From assembly GCA_012932865.1 (NCBI GenBank), contig SAXG01000009.1, positions 915,163 to 979,162 on the forward strand: DNA of 64,000 nucleotides. Reading direction: 5' to 3'. The translations under genes and the position numbers were made by a program. Within the stretch, counting starts at the first letter, position 1. Every line of letters begins with the position of its first letter. Shown here piece after piece: positions 28,569 to 58,700 of the stretch. The notes beneath the pieces were generated by a model, which ran no database searches, was not told where the DNA came from, and saw only the letters and a program-made list of their open reading frames with translations. This DNA is from Amylostereum areolatum. Taxonomy: Eukaryota > Basidiomycota > Agaricomycetes > Russulales > Stereaceae.

Positions 28569-30324
28569 CCGATTACCTCCATCCAACCCACCCTGCTTTC
28601 CACTTTTCTTCCCTTGCCGCTCTCCACCCTATCCCATCGGACTTCGCATCCTCGCACTCTATCTCCACGATCGGTTCGCTCCGCCACCCGATATCTCGTT
28701 ACATCCTACGCGCCGGGCACGGCGTGCCCGCCATCCACACCATACGGATACCCCTCCCTCCCCTTCCCTCCCCCTCTATTCTTTCGTCGTCGTAATCGGT
28801 GCTGAGTCAGCGGCGCCGGGAGTTGGAATGGAATACGTGGACCGTATACCAAAATCTACACTATCTCGGAACCCGTGTCCCGGCTCGAAGAGTCGAAGTC
28901 TTCCATGTCGACGCACGGCTGCAGTCGCACGCGTCGCGTCGAAACGCGTCCAACGAGCAAACGCTCGGGGTTCAGGCATGTGAAATCGCGTCGGCCAATG
29001 CGATAGCCTGGAGGCTGGGGACTTGTGGGCGCAGGTTTGCGGCACAGTACTACATTCTTACAGTACTTACTGTTGGTCCTTTGCTCAGCGCCCCCCGCCG
29101 GCACGACTTCCCCATGGGGAGCCGTTGGAGGCTCTGCCTCCGGCGGTGACGCGGGTGCAGTTGCCACCATTGTCCAGGACCTCCCCCTTTTTCAGTTCAG
29201 GTCCAACGCCTGGCGAACTCAAAAAACAGCACCCGCAGTCAGAGCAGCCCTCTCGGGCGTTCTAGTCATCGTTCATTTTCACACTGAGGGGTCGTGCGCG
29301 TGCGCGTGTTGTTGGGCCGTGGCGTCGCAGGATCGCGCGCACAGGCTACTCGCCGCGGTCAAGCGCGCGAGTCCGAGTCGGATCTTTCCTATATTTTTCT
29401 GGGAATGGTCGAAGATCCAAGGAAGACGGGGTTCAGTAAGAGAAGGGGTTGTAGAGAGGGGTTCACAAAGAGTGTCTATTGGGAGGGACGGTGGTGGGAG
29501 GATGTATACAGGTTCATTGGGTGGGGATCGCGTGGCCACTCGCGCATCCCTACCCATGTCTAGATATCACGTCTGGTTCCGCTGCCCACAGCTGCCGATC
29601 TGTATGCGCGCATCTACACCAAACTTTCCCATTGCGATCCGCTCGAACAGGAAACAACGCGCGTCAGCTTCCTCAAGTCGTCTGCTCCTGTCGTCTGCTC
29701 CCGTGGGCTGCCGTGGTACGCGTCAGGCCGCTGGTAAGAAGATGCGCTTCTTTCCGACTCGGACGAGGGAGAGGCGTCGTCATACGGTGCAGGGCAAGGC
29801 CGGGTCGTTTGGGCTTCAATTGGAGCGTATCGACCATTCGATTGTCGACGCGGCACGCCGAACGGGATCAGGTAGGATCAGGTGGTCAGACGCAGACGCG
29901 CGGTACCGCGCGGGTGGTCCTGGAAAACTTTAGACGAGGAGCGATGCGTCGATGATAAGTTAGAGATGGACAAGGCACGGTGGATCTGGGATGGCGGGGA
30001 CGCGGGGGGCGCTCCAAGTCTTGGTCACTGGGTCTCTCGACGACGGACCCGCAGGATCCACGAGACATTGTCTCAGATTGGGCTCGCCGTTGTGCGTGCT
30101 CGCGGACCAATACTTCTAGTTCCAATCGGATATTTCGAGACGTCGCGTGGTTTGTCGACGAGAATTTGGATGGTGAATGTTGAAAGGCGGAAGGTGGAGA
30201 CGGGACAGAGGATCCGATGGGCGGCAGGAAGGGTAGTTGGGGGCAAGTTGGGGGCCTCGTGCGTGATATATAGGTATTAATCTACGCAGCAGTTGGAGGA
30301 ATTTGAAAATGAGATTGAGATGCA
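28569..30324. other. Intergenic region upstream of the transposon
   Basis: No gene is firmly supported. A minus-strand ATG at 29170 begins an Ala/Pro/Glu-rich stretch ending in a good GTAAGT donor at about 29067 and can be spliced to a frame ending near 28776, but the product (about 110 residues) resembles nothing known. Long plus-strand frames at 29025-29955 overlap it and look random. Confidence 0.35.
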
Positions 30325-30358
30325 GGAGGACCCCTGAAACGCCCGCCAGAGGTCCGAT
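30325..30358 (+). repeat. Left terminal inverted repeat
   Basis: 34 bases, starts GGAGGACCCC and ends GGTCCGAT, exact reverse complement of 37143-37176. Confidence 0.95.
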
Positions 30359-30364
30359 GCACCT

Positions 30365-30515
30365 ACCCGGGGTCAAACGGCGCGTCAGCGCCGAGCTCCG
30401 AGGGGGGATGCCGGGTCTGAGACCCCAAATTTGGCTCTATGTCCGAGGATCTGTCCGGGTTAGGGACCGTTTGCTGGCGAGGTCCGATCCTTGACCCGGG
30501 GCTATCCGAGGGGAC
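30365..30515 (+). repeat. Left subterminal repeat block
   Basis: Holds copies of CCCGGGGTC and GGTCCGA-type motifs, including GTCCGAGGATC at 30441 and GGTCCGATCC at 30480, arranged in the same order and orientation as the block at 37027-37100. Likely transposase-binding sites by analogy with other cut-and-paste elements. The remaining sequence to 30714 is leader or promoter with no gene. Confidence 0.7.
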
Positions 30516-30714
30516 TATGAGATGGACAGACAGGGTATTGTACTGTAATTTGGACCAAATATGATAGATAAATAGTTTTATCTCCAAGTAGCAGTTATTC
30601 CACCTATATTCGTCCTATACAGGCGCACAATGACAGGAGCTTGGGCACTTACTCCGCCGTTGATGTTCAACCTTCTGTCCCTTACTCACACTCACACTTC
30701 CCAACCCTGACCAC

Positions 30715-33700
30715 ATGAATACACCTATCTCAGTCCTCGATGATTCTGAAATACCTGATTTTGACCACAAGACCTGGATTGGCACCGGAAAACAATTCCC
30801 CCAAATCGACATTCCTCCGGAACTCGCCCATCACATCAAGACTCTCCTCGTCATCCCCCCTCAGTTGGAGAACGACCTTCTCCCTGGTCCAAACCTTCCT
30901 GTTTGGGACTTTGTGTCTACGTCCCTTCCAAAGAGAAGCAACACATCCGTATACCCGGCACCATCATCAGCATTTTCAAAGGAACCGCCGGACCGCGCAT
31001 CTGCTCACCTCCATGTCCGTGACCTCCCTCCTCGAGATTTTGTAAGGAAGGTAGACCGGTTGATTGGGCAAATGGTCCTGGATGGGATGCAGTCAGTTTG
31101 CGACCCCCAATATCGGGATGGTCGACTACCATTCTGGGTGGTGACGTACTGGCAACAGATGCACACAATTCTGGATATACAGAATGCCTGGAAGAATGCC
31201 ATAACTTGGTTAGAGAGCAAGGCAGGAGAGGAGGGAGAGGAATCAAGAGAACACGTTCAAGAGGCACTCCGACAAGTAGCAACTATACCATGGCACGAAC
31301 CGACGGCAATTCGAGGCGCACAAATGAATGCAACCACAGCAGACTTTGTCAAGCTCCTAGGAGACGGGCGGGTCAGCACATTCACCCTCAACATGATGAT
31401 GCATTGGATTGTGGAGCAGCTTGAAAATGCACCACCGGAAAGCCGTGTTTACGAGGTCCACGGGTTCGACATCTGGAACGAGATTCGAAAAGCAGAGCGC
31501 GCGGATTTCTATCAAGCCAGGTCGCCCCGATTTCTCCGTCAAACCGAAAGAATCCTTTCCGAGGGCAAGAAGGTTGTCCTCATGCCGGTTTTTGTCCAGG
31601 ACCAACAACACTTCGCTATTCTACGGATAGATGGTCATCAGCGCACAGTGGCTTATGGTGAGGAAACCCAATCTATGATACATGATTTTGGGACATTTAC
31701 CAGAGGGGTACAGGCGACAGTCTTCGGCATAAACTTGAGCGGCCTCAAGAAGTGGTCACGAAAGTACAACACTGGTTGCGCGTCCGGCTCGGCGGCGAAT
31801 ACAGATGGGTTGACAGCGACGATACATTTCCCTGTGCGACTCAAGACGACTGGGTGTCATGTGGAATATGTGCGGCAAATACAATTGCCCACACGACATT
31901 GAACGAGGCTCTCTGGACACAGACAACAGCTGTTGAACACCGAGTCCGCTGGTTTGTCCGGTTAGCAGAAGCACATACAAGGAGCAGAGTGGTAAGTTGT
32001 TATTCTTTATCATCACGAACACGAACTCACCTACCCACGATACTGTTAAGGGCCGAGTGGCAAGCATACCACCGCCAGCGCACACTGCAGGATCATTACG
32101 AGCCAGCCGCCTTCCGTCAGGCATGGCAAGGCTGTTAGCTGTGGATGAACGCCATGTTCCTTCTGCTCTGATAGCAATTAGCCCTCCTTCGCCGATGGCC
32201 ATGGATTCCAGAGACGCTTACCTTCCGACCGAGCAAGCAATAGACGTTATGATTGCTGACGACAACGACAACGGATCCTACAACGATCCGATGGATATTG
32301 ATGACCCTACTACAGTTTGCATGAGTGCGCAACTTCAGCTTCCCACCCAAGATGCAGAGACAAACCTTTCGACATCATTTTCCAGTACAATGTCAAATGA
32401 CACCGCCGACACTGGTCCCCCAATCCCTCCCCCTGTTGTGCCACATAATAACTCGGACATACTACCCAAACTCAACTCAAATCCTCCCGCTTTCCATCCC
32501 TCTTCTCGTGCAGTATCTCGTGGGTCTACCCAGTCCTCGTCGTCCGCACCGGCAGGACACAATGAAGGCCGGATAAAGCTCAAGACCTTTGATATATTTG
32601 CGAGCACAAAGAAGGCAGCGGCGGAGGGGAAGGTGGCAAAAGCCAACAAAGTCATTGGCTGGTTCAAAAAGCGTACCTTCAGTGACATCGAGGGGTCAAG
32701 TGAGGAGAGCGACCACACACCAAAGCCGACAAAGATCAGCAAGCTTTTTGCCCGCGCTTCCTCGAAGGGGAAATCATTGCCAACGCATGTAAAGGTCGAC
32801 TCAACCGGGAGTGTTGCGAACGTAGGCAACTCAAGGACTGCCCAGCGTCAGCGGTTTATCAAACAGGGAGTGGCGGACGGGACGTACACTGAAGATTGTG
32901 CAAAGAAGGACGAGTTCCAGAGGAAGGTCCGCGAGTACGACTCTCATGCTGAATTCGACCCTCGGGATCCTTTCCTTGTTCGGCACTCTACTTGCGGCTG
33001 TGTCATCCGCATGGATGCTCTTCATGAAGTCAACGCATTCCGAAGGCATGTCCTTGGTCGTAAAGACGGAAAACAAAAGCCATGTAGAAGTGGCACCGGC
33101 GGAATGTCGTCACTTGACTCGTGGCGTGCATCAACAACGATGCCCACTTCCCGTCGCATTGTCGAATTACCATGCCCAGGACTCCTTGCGAGAACGGATG
33201 ACAAGATCAAAAACTACCTAGATCGAGGATACACTGATGGCGGTGGAGCACCCTCCCTTTCACTGTTGACGAACGAACTCTTCCCCTCCGCAAAAAACTT
33301 TCGGAATTTATCCCAAGATCAGAAAGAGGTCGTCTATGCTGCTCAACGGTCCCGCTGGAAGTGGCGTGTTGATTTAGACCTCCAACGTGTAGTTTCCACC
33401 GAGTGTTCACTATCTGTTCAAGTTCCTGAGGACACGGACATTGCCTCTCGCCCACCATGTGTAGCTTGCAAATCGCTCCGATCTCTCAAAACCTTTTCGA
33501 ACGCACTCCGTCGCCACCAGAAAGACAAGGACCCAGAAAATGCGAAGTATACGGCAAAAGTAGTGGTTCGTGGGGCGGAGATGAGCACCGACCGGTACGC
33601 TCGAGTCATCGGCCTCCAGTCAATCCTTAACGCATTCAAGGAGGTACGTGATTGTGTTATGTTGAGTGGATGCGATTTCTTACATCACACTTTGCAGAAT

Positions 33701-36700
33701 TCACGCGAGCCATACCTAGTTTTTGCACGAGGAGTATCAGAGGGAAGATTCAAGAACGAGGATGTATTCAAAGGTTTCTTGAAAGCCCTAGTCGACCGAG
33801 ACGAGATGGCTCGTCGTGGTGTGGATTCGCGTGCAATGCGTTATGCTCCCACCGTGACAGAATTCGCACATGTTCTCAATATCCACAGCCCGAAAGCATA
33901 TCAGGCAATGCGACAGGTCCTGCCACTTCCGCACGCGCGCACGCTGCAGTAAGTAGAATTACAGTACTGGCAAGCTTCTTTCCGAGTTGTGCTAACTTGT
34001 TACCCAGAATTCAAAGGTCACGCGAGCCACGTTTTCCTATTGGAATACAGGAGCGTACATTCGACCGTGTTCGACAGATTCTCGACAAGCTCAAGTACAA
34101 CGGCCCCGTTGCGTTGGCATGCGATGATACCAAACTTGAGCCATCGCTAGACCCGTACTGGGATGCCGACCTTGGGCAGTATGTTTTGCTCGGTGGAACC
34201 GATTGCCCACCCATGATACTCCCTGAACCTGACGAGCTCGCACATGCAATCAACCAAGGGAAAATCGAAAAGGCTACCCAGGTGTGCTGTCCTGTACCAT
34301 CACCAATAACCAATATCTGATCCATGCTCTGGTGCTCAGCTCCGTGTTTGGACACTGCAAACTTTTGCCCCAAATGTTCCTACCATACTCGTATGTGCGA
34401 TGCCGATATCTGCCAAAGCCAAGGCCGAGGACCTCTGGAAGCACCTCGAGACTGTTTTGGTTGGGCTCCATAAGCTTGACATCGAGGTTGTCGTATACTC
34501 AGCAGATGGCTCGTCGAAGGAGCGATCAATCGAGCGTATCTTGCATGGAAAAGCGGCCAGGTATCGAGACTATGTCATTCCCCATCCCGTTGACCCTGCG
34601 CGTAACCGCCACTACCGAGTCGGGTTCTTCAAGGTCAACGGATCTGACCGGGAAATCCCCGTCATCTTTGCTCAAGATCCAGATCATGGTCGAAAAACAT
34701 ACAGGAATAATCTGTTTTCGGGTGCTCGTGTCTTGACATTGGGGCATTACATCGCAGCCTACAGCCACATACGCGCTCTCGCATTTGAAGTTCAAGATGG
34801 CCAACCCGGTCCCATTTATCATCGCGACATTGAGAAGCTAGATCGCCAGGATGACAACGCCGCAATCCGAGTTTTCAGTGCCAACACCTTGCGCTGGTTA
34901 GTCAAGCATCATCACGAGCAACGTGGCACAATTGTCTTCTGCTATGTTTATGGCGAGCTTCCCGACGCTTACAGCAATCGTTTCATATGTCTATCGGATC
35001 GCATCCACATTGCCCTACGTACCCTCTATTTTACAGAGATGTGGGAGGATTTCCTCGCGCGTGGAGGCTACCCCAAATCCAAGCACTGTCTATCCCCAGA
35101 GGCCCTCGACATCACCCAATTTCTTGCCGACGCACTCATCCAATCTGTTATAATCTTCCGCGACGAACTTGGCGGGAAGTACCCGCTCCTGCCATGGAAG
35201 ATTGGTACTCCAGGCTGTGAGCATGTCTTCGGCGTGTCTCGTCAGATTGTCGAGGACTTCAATGCGCTCGACTTCCAATACATGGCACCTAAACTGCAAA
35301 TTCGACTTCGGGAGAAATTCCTCTTCAACAACGTCTCCGATGGCAAGGCTCGCGCGCAAGGTTACAACCACACGTACCAAGATGACCAAAACATGGACCT
35401 CGCTGCACTGTCCGCTTTCCCGTCCGATGAAGAGATCAAGACAATTGCCCATGCCGCATATGGAGAAGCTGCTGGCTTGTGGGAACTTCTCGGTGTCGAC
35501 GTCAATCGTGACTGGGAGGTTTCCCGGATGCGGTTACCTTCAGTATATTCTATGCTGGCTAAAAATGCATCGTCTTCTAGTGCGGACCATAGCGATGATG
35601 ACGATGACAACGTACTAGGGGAAGATGAACATGAAGACAAGTCGGAGGACGAAGACGACACAAGTGCTTGCGAGTTGCGTCGTACAATGGAATTCTGGGA
35701 AGACGAGACCACCACTGTCTCTGAAGATAACGAATTGAATGCACTTGCAATGGCCGCCGCCTCGCTTTCCATCGAACGAGGCATCATGATGTATGTATTC
35801 TCTATCACCGTCTGTTTAGGTGGTGAATTGAAAGTTCCTAACTCAAATTCTCAGCAGCGAGATGCTTGACGAGACAAGTGCCGACGCAGATCGGATGTGG
35901 GAAGAGGATGCTCAACAACTCGGTAATTATCTTGCGAATGCACTTCCGGATACGAGGGATCCACGAGAGCGCACTACGCTTGCACTGTCAGACTGCTCGG
36001 ACTTGGATATGGACACTCTCACAGAACTTCGCGAGAAACACCAGACGCGCCAGGCCGAAACAGGGACTCGTCAGTCATCCACCGAGCAAACACGACCTGC
36101 GGAGGCAGTGATTCGGGCGCAACTCGTCAAAACATATCGAAATATTCTCCATAAACCTGGAGAGAAGGCTGATGGATCAGGCCAGGATCGTTTGGCACGT
36201 TGGACAAACACTGGGGGGAAGAAGACGGGGAATTCGGCGAATGCTGCACTGGCTGCGGACAATCGAGCTGGCTCGGTAAGTGCAAATTTTGTATCTTGTC
36301 GTGAGCGTCGATTCGACCTACGATTCTAGGAACAAACCAAACGAACGAAGGCGATTCGCAAGTTCAAGCTTCCGGCTCTCCTTGAGACTGCCCTCGTGTC
36401 CAAGGAACACCCCGTCAAAGCCGCTGCCGGCCACGACTTCGCATTTGTGTTCCACGAGGGCCGCATACAGCTAGCGCGAGGTGAGTACAACGTCCTCCGC
36501 ACCGATACTTCGAAGAGCTAAATAGCCCGTGTTACAGTGCTTGAACTTTATGTCAAATCAGGCGGAAACTACGGCGCTCATGGTTGGGTGCCCGAATGCA
36601 CGCAGATCATGGCTCTCTCTCATATCGCTGTCCAGCTTTTCGAACCCGGGAAGGCTGGCCATGGCCATGTCCCTCGTATGTTCCGTGTCATCCCAAAGCC

Positions 36701-36920
36701 AACCGAATCACGTCTGCTCAAAGTCCCGCGCTTCGCACTACTTCCACCATCGGCCTTCTTGGTATCTGTTTCTTCTGTTGAACAGAGTAGTCGCGAGTAT
36801 ATTATTTCAAGCCAGGATGTTCAAATCCTTTCGCAAATATGGAGCAAAGAGGCCGACATTCAGCGGGCAATAGGAGCAATGCACAGCCGTTCTCGAGCAC
36901 CTGCCGGTGGCGACTCGTAA
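30715..36920 (+). CDS. Transposon protein: C48 (Ulp1-like) protease fused to candidate DDE transposase
   Basis: Nine exons: 30715-31657, 31714-31991, 32051-33643, 33698-33948, 34008-34281, 34340-35790, 35855-36275, 36330-36480, 36538-36920; 5745 bases, 1914 residues, in phase at every junction. Residues about 200-375 are a C48 cysteine protease with all four active-site positions: His299 (QQHFAILRID), Asp316 (YGDSL), Gln358 and Cys364 (QDDWVSCG). A disordered linker (410-620) follows, then paired-cysteine segments (C722/C724; C877/C880). The transposase-like half has Asp1061 (LACDDTKLEPSL), Asp1226 (AQDPDHGRKTYRNN, recalling the D-x-x-H-x-x-K-x-x-RN of P-element enzymes) and Glu1407 (PGCEHVFG), a plausible DDE triad. 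The protease may remove SUMO- or ubiquitin-like tags; that is inference. Not domesticated, as it sits between intact element ends. Confidence 0.85.
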
Positions 36921-37026
36921 ATATGGTACACTTCCCCCCATACTTTACCCTAGTTACATCCATAACATTTTAGAGTACCCAGTCGCATTATGAACCTACA
37001 ATACATACACGGTTCGCTATCTATGA

Positions 37027-37100
37027 GGTCTGAGGACAGGTCCGGGGTTAGACCAACCTTTGGTGGAGGTCCGAGGACGCGACCCGGGGTCGAACGACCC
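37027..37100 (+). repeat. Right subterminal repeat block
   Basis: Direct, diverged copies of GGTCYGAGGA (37027 and 37068), TCCGGGGTTAGACC and GACCCGGGGTCGAACG matching the left block. Between here and the gene's stop at 36920 there is no other coding signal. Confidence 0.7.
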
Positions 37101-37142
37101 TTTCGAGCTGCTGCGGAACCCGGGGGAAAGCCCCCCTAGCGG

Positions 37143-37176
37143 ATCGGACCTCTGGCGGGCGTTTCAGGGGTCCTCC
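37143..37176 (-). repeat. Right terminal inverted repeat
   Basis: 34 bases, starts ATCGGACC and ends GGGGTCCTCC, exact reverse complement of 30325-30358. Confidence 0.95.
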
Positions 37177-37697
37177 CCCATTCCGCCTGGTATGTACAAC
37201 TTAAAATCCGTTTCTAGTCGCCTCCATCTCATTTGCTTGATCTTAAGTATTCAACAGCTGTCCGTTCACTCACTGCCACGGAATAGGCAATGCCTCTCAG
37301 CCTTCATGGAGTGATCCGCCCCCAGGCTATGTACTTCGTCTTCTCCAATCCTGTCCTCCGGTTTCTCGGAAAACCCGAACGCTAATCTACGGGAAAATTT
37401 GCAGATAAAGTGCCTCTGAGAATTAGCACACATGTCGTCGTAGACTACCACCTATATACGAGCGGTCGGAACAGAGGCGGAATATAGCTCACGAGACGTT
37501 TGTACGAACGTTGCAGTCTCGGGTAGACGGTACGTACCATATAGATTGATCTGATCCCTCGGAATGCTGTTCCGTTCCGTGTTCCCGGCGCAAGGCGGGG
37601 CAGGAAAATGCATCGAAATATAAATTGTCACTGATTATCGCTATAAAGGCTGTTCGTGTCTTTTTGCTCGTCCAGCCGGTTATTCTCCAGCACAGAG
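37177..37697. other. Intergenic, promoter of oxygenase gene
   Basis: No coding signal. AT-richer than average. It connects the transposon end to the 2OG oxygenase start. Confidence 0.45.
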
Positions 37698-55714: not shown

Positions 55715-58700
55715 ATGATCCAGGATGCACATCCCCCACCTTCTCCAGATGAAGATGCACTTAACGAATCCTTCCTTGACGCCGTAATGCGTGGGGATGA
55801 AGACGCGGTCACGCTGGCCCTCGCCGCAGGAGCGGACGTGAACGCAACCGACAGCGTCGGTCGTTCTTCACTCGCATGTGCCATCACGGGCCCAAAGTGT
55901 GTCTCACTTTTCTGCTCCTCTCCGACGCGCTTTTTGACACGACTTCATCAAGCTGGGAAACTGCCGACGCGTCCGACGCGTCTTTCATGACGGAAAGCCG
56001 CGTTAAAATCCTCCAACACTTGATCAAACATCCCCAGGTTTCCCTTTACACGTTGAACGCGCCGCAATACGAAATGCACGGCGTCACACCACTGGGGCTT
56101 GCCGCATGGTTGAACGCGTCTGAAGCTGTTCGAATATGCCTGGAAGTCGGTTCGGGGGCGGTCGCGGTCGACGCACCTGATGACCATGGCGTGACGCCTC
56201 TGACGTGTACGTGGCTCTCTCGTGGCGCGTATGGACCCGGAATGTTCACCTCGATTCTCCGACAGACGCCGTTCGTGATGGGCGGAAAGAAGTAGCTCAA
56301 TGCTTGGTTCGTTGCAATTGATTCTGTTGTGACATACTTACCAATTGAAACGCGTCGTTCTTCTGCAGCTTTCCCATGGCGCGCGTGCCGACGCGCGTGA
56401 TACGAACCATCGCTCCCCTGTACAGTTTGCAATCCCGCATAGGCAGGCGCTATGGCTATGTGAACGATCTCTGCGCCTCCAGAGACGTAAGGAAACTCAG
56501 GTGCGTTCATACTAACTTCTCACAATCGTCTCGCGTATTCATAACGAACGCCAGTCCGGCAACCCGTGCAATCTGTGCCCAAAAGCACGAGATGACCTTC
56601 CGTTGGATGTCGAATCCCTCGCTTGCCTCGTCCGCCACTGGCCCCCAGAACAATCCTTTTCTCGCCCCTCGGTCCTGACGGCTGCCAGCGAGCTTACGAA
56701 ACTCGTCATATCCTCTGATGCGCCCTCGCTTCAATCTCTCCTCTTCCCCCACCCCCCATCTCAGCCTTTAACTGCCGCACCCACCGAGGCCATGCCTCCT
56801 GTACTTGTCAACAGCCCGGATAACGATGGCTGGTCCCTCATACACTACTGTACATCAGTTCGCCAACCCTCTGTCGAGGTCCTCGACCTCCTCTATCGCG
56901 CTGGCGCAGACATCAACCTCTTCTCCATTATGGGGAACTGCACTCCCTTGCACTGCCTAGCGCGCAAGAAGCGAGGCCCTGACACTCTCAGGGACGCTCA
57001 TGCCAACCGGCTCCTGTATGACTTCGTTATACATCTCGTCCGCGATTTTCGCGCGCCCCTCACGGCACTCAATAGCGCGAAGGAGACGTGCATTCATCTG
57101 GCGGCGGAGTTCGGGGACAGCACGGAGGTGCTTCGTGCACTGCTTGATTGCGACAAGGACCGTTCCGTTCGCGAGATGCGCAATGCGAGAGGGTATGTGC
57201 TCGTCACCATGTTTACTCTGCTTCGTTCTGACCGTAACGACAGACTGACCCCCCTGGAGGTTGCAAAGCCCGAATTCCGGTCCGTGTTCGGTATCCACGA
57301 CGAGGGAAATCGTCCAGCGTCAGCGGCTTCTCTTCTGACCGTGCGACCCTTGCGCCATATCAGTTCAACCCCCTCCATATCTTCCTTTGCCACTTCCTCA
57401 ACGTCAAGCCCCCCTGTGCTCACACCACGCGGCTCGCCCGATGCGCTCCCGTCTCCCGACATCAATGCGTCCCTGACGCCGTTCGAACGCCTCGTCGACA
57501 GCCTCCGTTCAATCGTGGGCGAACGTATTGGTGACACCGCCTCGGAATTGGATCGGGTTGAGGCCATCCTTCGGAACGCTCAGGCTTGCAAACAAGATGC
57601 GTTTGGAAAGTTTGGGACGAGGATCGCGGAAGTTCGGGAACATGTCACAGCGGCCAACGTTACCTGGACTGAAGTCGACGCCGCCCTTGACATTACAGCC
57701 CAGGCTTTGGACGAGAAGGCCCAGGAAACATTGCTCTCTGCGAAGGCGACGGATGCTCCTTCGACGACTCCTGGGGAATTTCCCGGTCGTTCGCGTAGCG
57801 GCACTACATTCTCTTCTGATTCTCAGCGAACGGCCGTGTCTACCGGTGATAGCGGATTCTGGGAGGTAGCCAGCAAAGTCTCGTCTCACCAAGGGAATTC
57901 GGATGCGAACTCCCGTCGCTTCCCCTCTGCGTCTCAAGCAGGTCCCGATGACCAAGACGAGCCCGACCATGCGTCGGACGGCTCTCTAACACCATGGCCA
58001 ATCTGGCTGGACCCTGGCGAATACAACCCTACGCGTCCTTCGTCGCCCTATTCAATACACTCTCGCCTCAAAGCGTTCAAAAGCATGAGCGACCTTCAAG
58101 GTGATCAAAACGTTCAGCCTCCCCCTCCATCCACGACTCCTCCTGTACCCCGACGTGCTCGTGCAGACACCCTGGGAGGTATCCTCCGCAGACCGGGGGA
58201 CGCTGGCATGGAAAAAAGCGGGACGGCTAGGCTGAAGGCGTGGTTCAAAAAGAAGCTCATGCCGGAACGTCCAATCAAGGTCGTAGTCGCCCCACGGCCC
58301 AGTCACTCCAGAAAGTCCACCGTTACGGAACCCAGGTCTTCATTAGGCACACTATGCGAGGCCAACGAAACCCCTGATTACCTGGGGAAGGATAGCGATT
58401 CTGCGGTGGATGCGGGTGGTCAAAGACATCCTGCATACGGCGTGCTGGCCACTGTGGGCAAGGACCTTGCCAAGGTTGATGCGTGCATTTCCAATGTAGG
58501 TGATATCCGCTTGCTTTTGTATGGGTTTCAACTGAATTCTGGTGCTGGATAGGCGGACAAATTTCTCTCGTCTGCGTTACGTGGTGTTTCAAGGGCAGAA
58601 CGCCTCACCAAACGGGCTATTCAGGTACGCTGCATTGCTCTCCTGCCAAGTCTACAGTGCTTATTGAGTACTCCAGAATCGCTCTGAGCTTGTTCGCGAG

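Follow-up and report, generated by a model that had tools for sequence, protein, structure and literature searches.

What kind of mobile element encloses a single gene for both a protease and a transposase? The question is raised by a 64,000-nucleotide stretch of the Amylostereum areolatum genome (contig SAXG01000009.1, positions 915,163 to 979,162; hereafter the window), in which an initial annotation had described an intact-looking, apparently recently mobile DNA transposon with one spliced protein uniting a C48 protease and a DDE-like transposase. The copies of the element and the conserved reading frame bear out that description. We think it probable that this is an autonomous cut-and-paste transposon of the P-element superfamily, from an Agaricomycetes branch, whose single protein consists of an N-terminal Ulp1/SENP-type C48 protease and a P-type transposase.

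A search of the genome (57.13 Mb in 182 contigs) with the first 300 bases of the element returned four further copies of nearly 100% identity. Aligning the five copies end to end placed the complete transposon of the window at 30327-37174 on the + strand, a length of 6848 bp that is shared by four copies, with 6849 bp in the fifth, L012. Differences between the copies fall at 6 columns in total, two of them private to the window copy, and we take this near-identity to mean that the element has apparently moved recently. The exact 34-bp inverted repeats of the initial annotation are present in the window copy as perfect arms at 30325-30358 and 37143-37176; however, matches of the other four copies to the window start one or two bases inside 30325, with the inner 32 bp common to all and 33 bp shared by one copy by chance. 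Because only the inner 32 bp are shared, the terminal inverted repeat (TIR) is a perfect 32 bp (30327-30358, + strand; 37143-37174, − strand), compared with about 31 bp expected of P-element superfamily ends, and the outermost two bases of the 34-bp arms are flank. Each of the four other copies (L009-L012) sits in a perfect 8-bp target duplication, the length expected of the P-element superfamily, different at each site. With five near-identical copies, four of them cleanly duplicated, this is a candidate active element for fungal genetics.

Copies sharing the same ends, anticipated in the initial annotation, extend beyond these five. A pattern of the ends allowing up to 3 mismatches had 25 matches in the genome, and the reversed control had none. 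The five copies account for two matches each, as do a divergent full element (L014) and every one of six short derivatives, and contig C102 holds a single end. L014 is 6862 bp long, has its own 8-bp duplication and is about 56% identical to the window element in DNA. The short derivatives measure roughly 490-500 bp each and have similar ends; among the five that were fetched (the sixth, on C103, being left out), an 8-bp duplication is present at every one. Inside the ends of the window element, L014 and the short form lie repeats of the form AGGTC(C/T)GA-N-ACCCGGGG, which are candidate transposase binding sites. In the window the first, AGGTCCGA-N-ACCCGGGG (30350-30372, + strand), overlaps the inner end of the TIR and has the same form in L014 and a short derivative; the second (30480-30501, + strand), in the same orientation, starts at element position 154, or 155 in the short derivative L015; another (37067-37089, + strand) is close to the right end.

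Between the ends a single gene is predicted (30715-36920, + strand), with nine exons encoding 1913 amino acids. The initial report of one gene that splices without a stop holds, while its length has to be corrected from 5745 to 5742 nt, stop included. The predicted GT-AG introns are 31658-31713, 31992-32050, 33644-33697, 33949-34007, 34282-34339, 35791-35857, 36276-36329 and 36481-36537. We tried 1080 splice combinations, 12 of which keep the frame open; these differ among themselves at introns 3, 6 and 8, by 23 residues at most, so the junctions of these three introns are uncertain. The frame is kept in 4/5 copies and is broken in L012 by a one-base insertion. Intron 31992-32050 joins the protease exons to a 1593-nt exon in which the linker is followed by the beginning of the transposase. 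Were this second intron retained, a 455-residue product with the protease only would result; that it serves as a regulatory product is only a suggestion, reminiscent of the regulated intron of Drosophila P.

The transposase half points to P elements through its DNA-binding domain and its fold. PF12017, the P-type helix-turn-helix, matched residues 964-1022 (33773-34008, + strand) at E=3.6e-9 (37.3 bits against a cut-off of 23) and was the sole Pfam family to match the window protein at E<=10. The initial annotation had placed a candidate DDE domain in residues 950-1500, and a conserved catalytic triad does lie there: D1061 (CDDTKL; 34123-34125), D1169 (SADGSS; 34505-34507) and, after an insertion domain, E1407 (CEHVFG; 35219-35221), all on the + strand. 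These positions hold Asp in 138/138, Asp in 135/137 and Glu in 123/126 ungapped alignment rows, respectively. A model of the homologue P0019 has the P-type fold, a split RNase H with D, D and E (residues taken from the alignment) and the P-type insertion domain within it. Among the families in the PDB fold lists, hAT and RAG/Transib transposases share the broad fold at a far lower Z than the P-type, and were rejected. Upstream of the helix-turn-helix lies a cysteine/histidine-rich part (32984-33469, + strand; C722, H740, C752; C782, C859, C877, C880), each of these residues being Cys or His in at least 80% of ungapped rows, which is a candidate for binding zinc and DNA.

The protease half carries the catalytic quartet at exactly the residues first proposed, aligned with the quartets of its homologues: His299 (31609-31611; H in 110/110 ungapped rows), Asp316 (31716-31718; D in 102/109), Gln358 (31842-31844; Q in 111/114) and the nucleophile Cys364 (31860-31862; C in 110/111), all on the + strand. 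Among alignment rows with a C48 core, 97/109 have the complete quartet. The domain spans residues ~181-407 (31255-31991, + strand) in exons 1 and 2, interrupted by intron 31658-31713. A C48 (Ulp1) fold was predicted for a homologue, with cellular SUMO and NEDD8 proteases as its top structural matches, so that both folds implied by the initial annotation are now predicted, in homologues. Three lines support the C48 assignment: the alignment of the quartet, the family profile and this modeled structure. The Ulp1/SENP SUMO proteases (PDB 1euv, 2hl9, 1tgz) have the same fold and His-Asp-Gln-Cys quartet; they differ in being cellular enzymes without a transposase fusion, and the fold match is at 13-14% identity. 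Searching proteins with only the protease half returned nothing at E<=0.001 although homologues carry the domain, which suggests that the word filter limits the search, not that the domain is absent. Residues 408-700 (32051-32929, + strand) form a linker that shares exon 3 with the start of the transposase, and the homologue model has a predicted local distance difference test (pLDDT) value below 50 at the corresponding residues 409-572.

How old is the union of the two halves? We collected 137 homologues, of which those we recognized are, we presume, all Agaricomycetes; two (P0053 and P0098) come from Pleurotus ostreatus. We built one tree for the protease and another for the transposase from the 102 rows that contain both. 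The distances of the two trees correlate at 0.847, whereas 1000 permutations never exceeded 0.23. Of the 48 well-supported protease splits, 40 are found again among those well supported in the transposase tree and 2 conflict with one of them; overall, 54/99 splits are common to both trees. Common host descent alone could raise such a correlation, yet it would not arise if the protease were freely exchanged. Because the trees largely agree, they show an old fusion that has been inherited as one unit.

We propose that the cysteine-rich and helix-turn-helix parts would contact DNA at the 32-bp ends and at the subterminal repeats, and that the split RNase H (D1061, D1169, E1407) would excise the element and insert it, with an 8-bp stagger, into a target; the short derivatives, having similar ends, may be mobilized in trans. 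At the site of transposition the protease would strip the transposase, or host proteins of repair or silencing, of SUMO or a similar tag. For its substrate and role this is the most likely proposal, supported indirectly by the SENP-like fold, the conserved quartet, the joint inheritance and a SUMO-binding-like motif at the N-terminus of part of the family. The same indirect support applies to the suggestions of the initial annotation that the protease could protect the transposase or counter SUMO-based silencing. In the window protein that motif is a hydrophobic-acidic stretch, ISVLDDSE (30727-30750, + strand), which we take to resemble the classical SUMO-interaction type. The motif analysis was exploratory and the enrichment marginal for this type: our strict first regular expression matched 7/50 N-termini against a shuffle maximum of 8, which is not significant, and a looser one matched 23/50 against a shuffle maximum of 15.

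A broader hypothesis would make the Agaricomycete P elements an old, still mobile branch in which the cysteine-rich module replaces THAP and a SUMO-directed protease was gained once; the transpososome would be drawn to SUMO-marked chromatin, silenced or under repair, and its SENP would strip SUMO there. We hold this hypothesis as doubtful, having lowered it slightly from an already tentative rating because the clearest N-terminal motif pattern is missing from both the window protein and L014. If it is true, the transposase of Agaricomycete P elements carries its own counter-silencing enzyme. P elements are a founding model of transposition, and a P-type transposase permanently joined to a SUMO-type protease offers a way to test directly why Ulp1 proteases recur in several unrelated transposons.

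Several observations weigh against a P-superfamily transposon with a SUMO-directed protease. PF12017 is found at E<=0.01 in just 6/29 homologues, the fold models are of homologues and not of the window protein, and no P transposase emerged at E<=10 when PDB sequences were searched by profile, so the P assignment leans on fold, helix-turn-helix and ends. The window protein has no match to the THAP domain at E<=10, and we do not assign the element to the sub-group of canonical animal P elements and THAP9; THAP domains are said to be absent from fungi in the available part of a review of animal P elements (PMC7776569). The same text places Asp528 of the Drosophila transposase in its GTP pocket. 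At that position, three before the catalytic Glu and the only one at which we compared the pocket, 38/40 ungapped rows have Glu and the window protein has Pro. The window copy has no 8-bp target duplication, its left flank GATGCAGG (30319-30326) having no match in the right flank CCCCCATT (37175-37182). Each flank occurs once in the genome, leaving no empty allele for comparison; the copies may have recombined ectopically, or flanking sequence may have been lost once the element had inserted. On the protease side, the window protein alone does not match Pfam C48 (PF02902) at E<=10, and activity, substrate and expression of the protease are predictions. The nonsynonymous difference between L014 and the window gene in the linker, 0.40 over the 118/280 codons that could be aligned, is not far above that of the C48 domain. 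Depending on the pattern, only 14/84 or 24/84 N-termini contain the SUMO-binding-like motif; its patterns were picked after the sequences had been seen, and none of them is present at the N-terminus of L014.

A different role for the protease is that it processes its own protein, cutting between the two halves in the manner of viral CE-clan proteases and acting on no host target. We consider this unlikely. Poxvirus core proteases are among the structural matches of the homologue's C48 model, but cellular SUMO and NEDD8 proteases head them. Ulp-type enzymes cleave after Gly-Gly, and a near-invariant GGG is present at residues 804-806 (G in 114, 113 and 122 of 123 rows); this stretch, however, is modeled with pLDDT above 80 immediately before a helix, and residues 380-719 have single conserved G columns only (666 and 684), with no conserved Gly-Gly.

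Could the protease instead be a passive passenger, either a separate adjacent gene or a captured exon that hitch-hikes with no part in transposition? The fusion is predicted from sequence alone, the linker in its alignable part comes close to C48 in conservation, and 30/137 rows with a transposase core are missing the C48 core. Among those 30, however, 27 are short models (<=1418 amino acids) and 3 are long with partial N-terminal coverage. Between L014 and the window gene, synonymous differences are saturated (0.74-0.79) while nonsynonymous differences are 0.35 in C48 and 0.23 in the RNase H and insertion domains. The complete quartet in 97/109 rows, the large agreement of the trees and the frame that runs unbroken from the second protease exon into the 1593-nt exon reaching the transposase also speak against a passenger, which we judge very unlikely.

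We give practically no credence to a Kyakuja-Dileera-Zisupton (KDZ) or CACTA-type element with an accompanying Ulp1 protease, since, although such elements can carry proteases and KDZ is abundant in this genome (160 PF18758 matches), the window protein has no match at E<=10 to PF18758, the transposase profile of basidiomycete KDZ elements, which are also fungal DNA elements, and PF12017 is its sole Pfam family, none of the PF18758 matches listed falls within the five copies, and the homologue fold is P-type. Zisupton has 8-bp duplications. The PF18758 matches are spread over many contigs, and many of those listed contain stops, a large KDZ load beside few clean P-type copies.

Having preferred a P-superfamily transposon with a fused C48 protease, we compared it with known systems; for the literature cited here, our statements cover the parts of each article that were available. 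The Drosophila P element (PDB 6p5a, 6pe2; PMC7776569) is 2.9 kb long with a TIR of ~31 bp, and the window element, at 6.85 kb, is over twice as long. The window protein further differs in its N-terminal C48 protease, in a cysteine-rich part where no THAP was found and in the non-conserved Asp528 position. Ginger1 (PMC2836005) likewise fuses a DDE transposase to an Ulp1 (or OTU) cysteine protease in one protein; its transposase is Gypsy-integrase-like, its protease C-terminal and its tabulated hosts animals. The oomycete elements CryptonF and CryptonS (PMC3212892) also have an Ulp1-type C48 peptidase, but they use a tyrosine recombinase and the peptidase of CryptonS is an additional protein. 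A survey of the P family found distant homologues also in Amoebozoa and Chromalveolata (PMC3985635).

The initial annotation had assigned the element to a poorly described basidiomycete lineage, had left the superfamily open and had named KDZ and CACTA among elements accompanied by Ulp1 proteases; we place the lineage in the P-element superfamily. Because a 'P-Fungi' class exists in repeat annotation, with 10 copies and 46,557 bp in Pleurotus ostreatus PC80 (PMC12387193), and P is among the transposase profiles applied to the fungus Rhizophagus (PMC11075540), fungal P elements as such are not new. By name 'P-Fungi' is a fungal P branch, in the species that yielded P0053 and P0098; we liken it to the present family by its label only, and the available text mentions no protease. 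A 2016 survey states that Tc1-mariner is the only cut-and-paste superfamily in P. ostreatus (PMC4905642), the species of those two proteins. Judged from listings, we found no description of a P-type transposase fused to C48 in the open-licence library searched. The fusion may be undescribed rather than unseen, and the protease may well be visible already in an entry of a repeat library. We also considered, and rejected, a connection with a transposon-like insert in MSH4 of Pleurotus, as the accessible account describes a CxC5/CxC6 cluster and nothing of the present P-type family (PMC7641404).

Further relatives in this genome came from a protein search, which returned two distant ones, L034 and L035 (35-37% identity), and one fragment. 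Both match the protease and transposase halves and have P0032 as their closest homologue; no terminal repeats were recognized for them among the listed inverted repeats. L035 has an extra gap of ~1.3 kb between matching blocks. A tblastn search of plasmids gave no match. Two short derivatives, L015 and L017 on contigs C143 and C94, are identical over 491 bp and have their duplication (on opposite strands) and flanks in common, which makes them one site on two contigs, through either a duplication of the region or haplotypes that the assembly left uncollapsed. One pattern search of the genome for excision footprints, bearing on the 17-nt staggered, GTP-dependent cleavage expected of the P-element superfamily, found nothing convincing, only a single palindromic sequence on two contigs. 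This 44-bp palindrome-like sequence, AGGACCCC...GGGGTCCT, is at C2:1078463-1078506 and C114:41549-41592 and is no clear footprint. Elsewhere in the window, the open reading frames at 743-1603, 1734-2528 and 56516-58549 matched the Pfam Frag1/DRAM/Sfk1 family, a DSBA-like thioredoxin (just over the cut-off) and ankyrin repeats, respectively.
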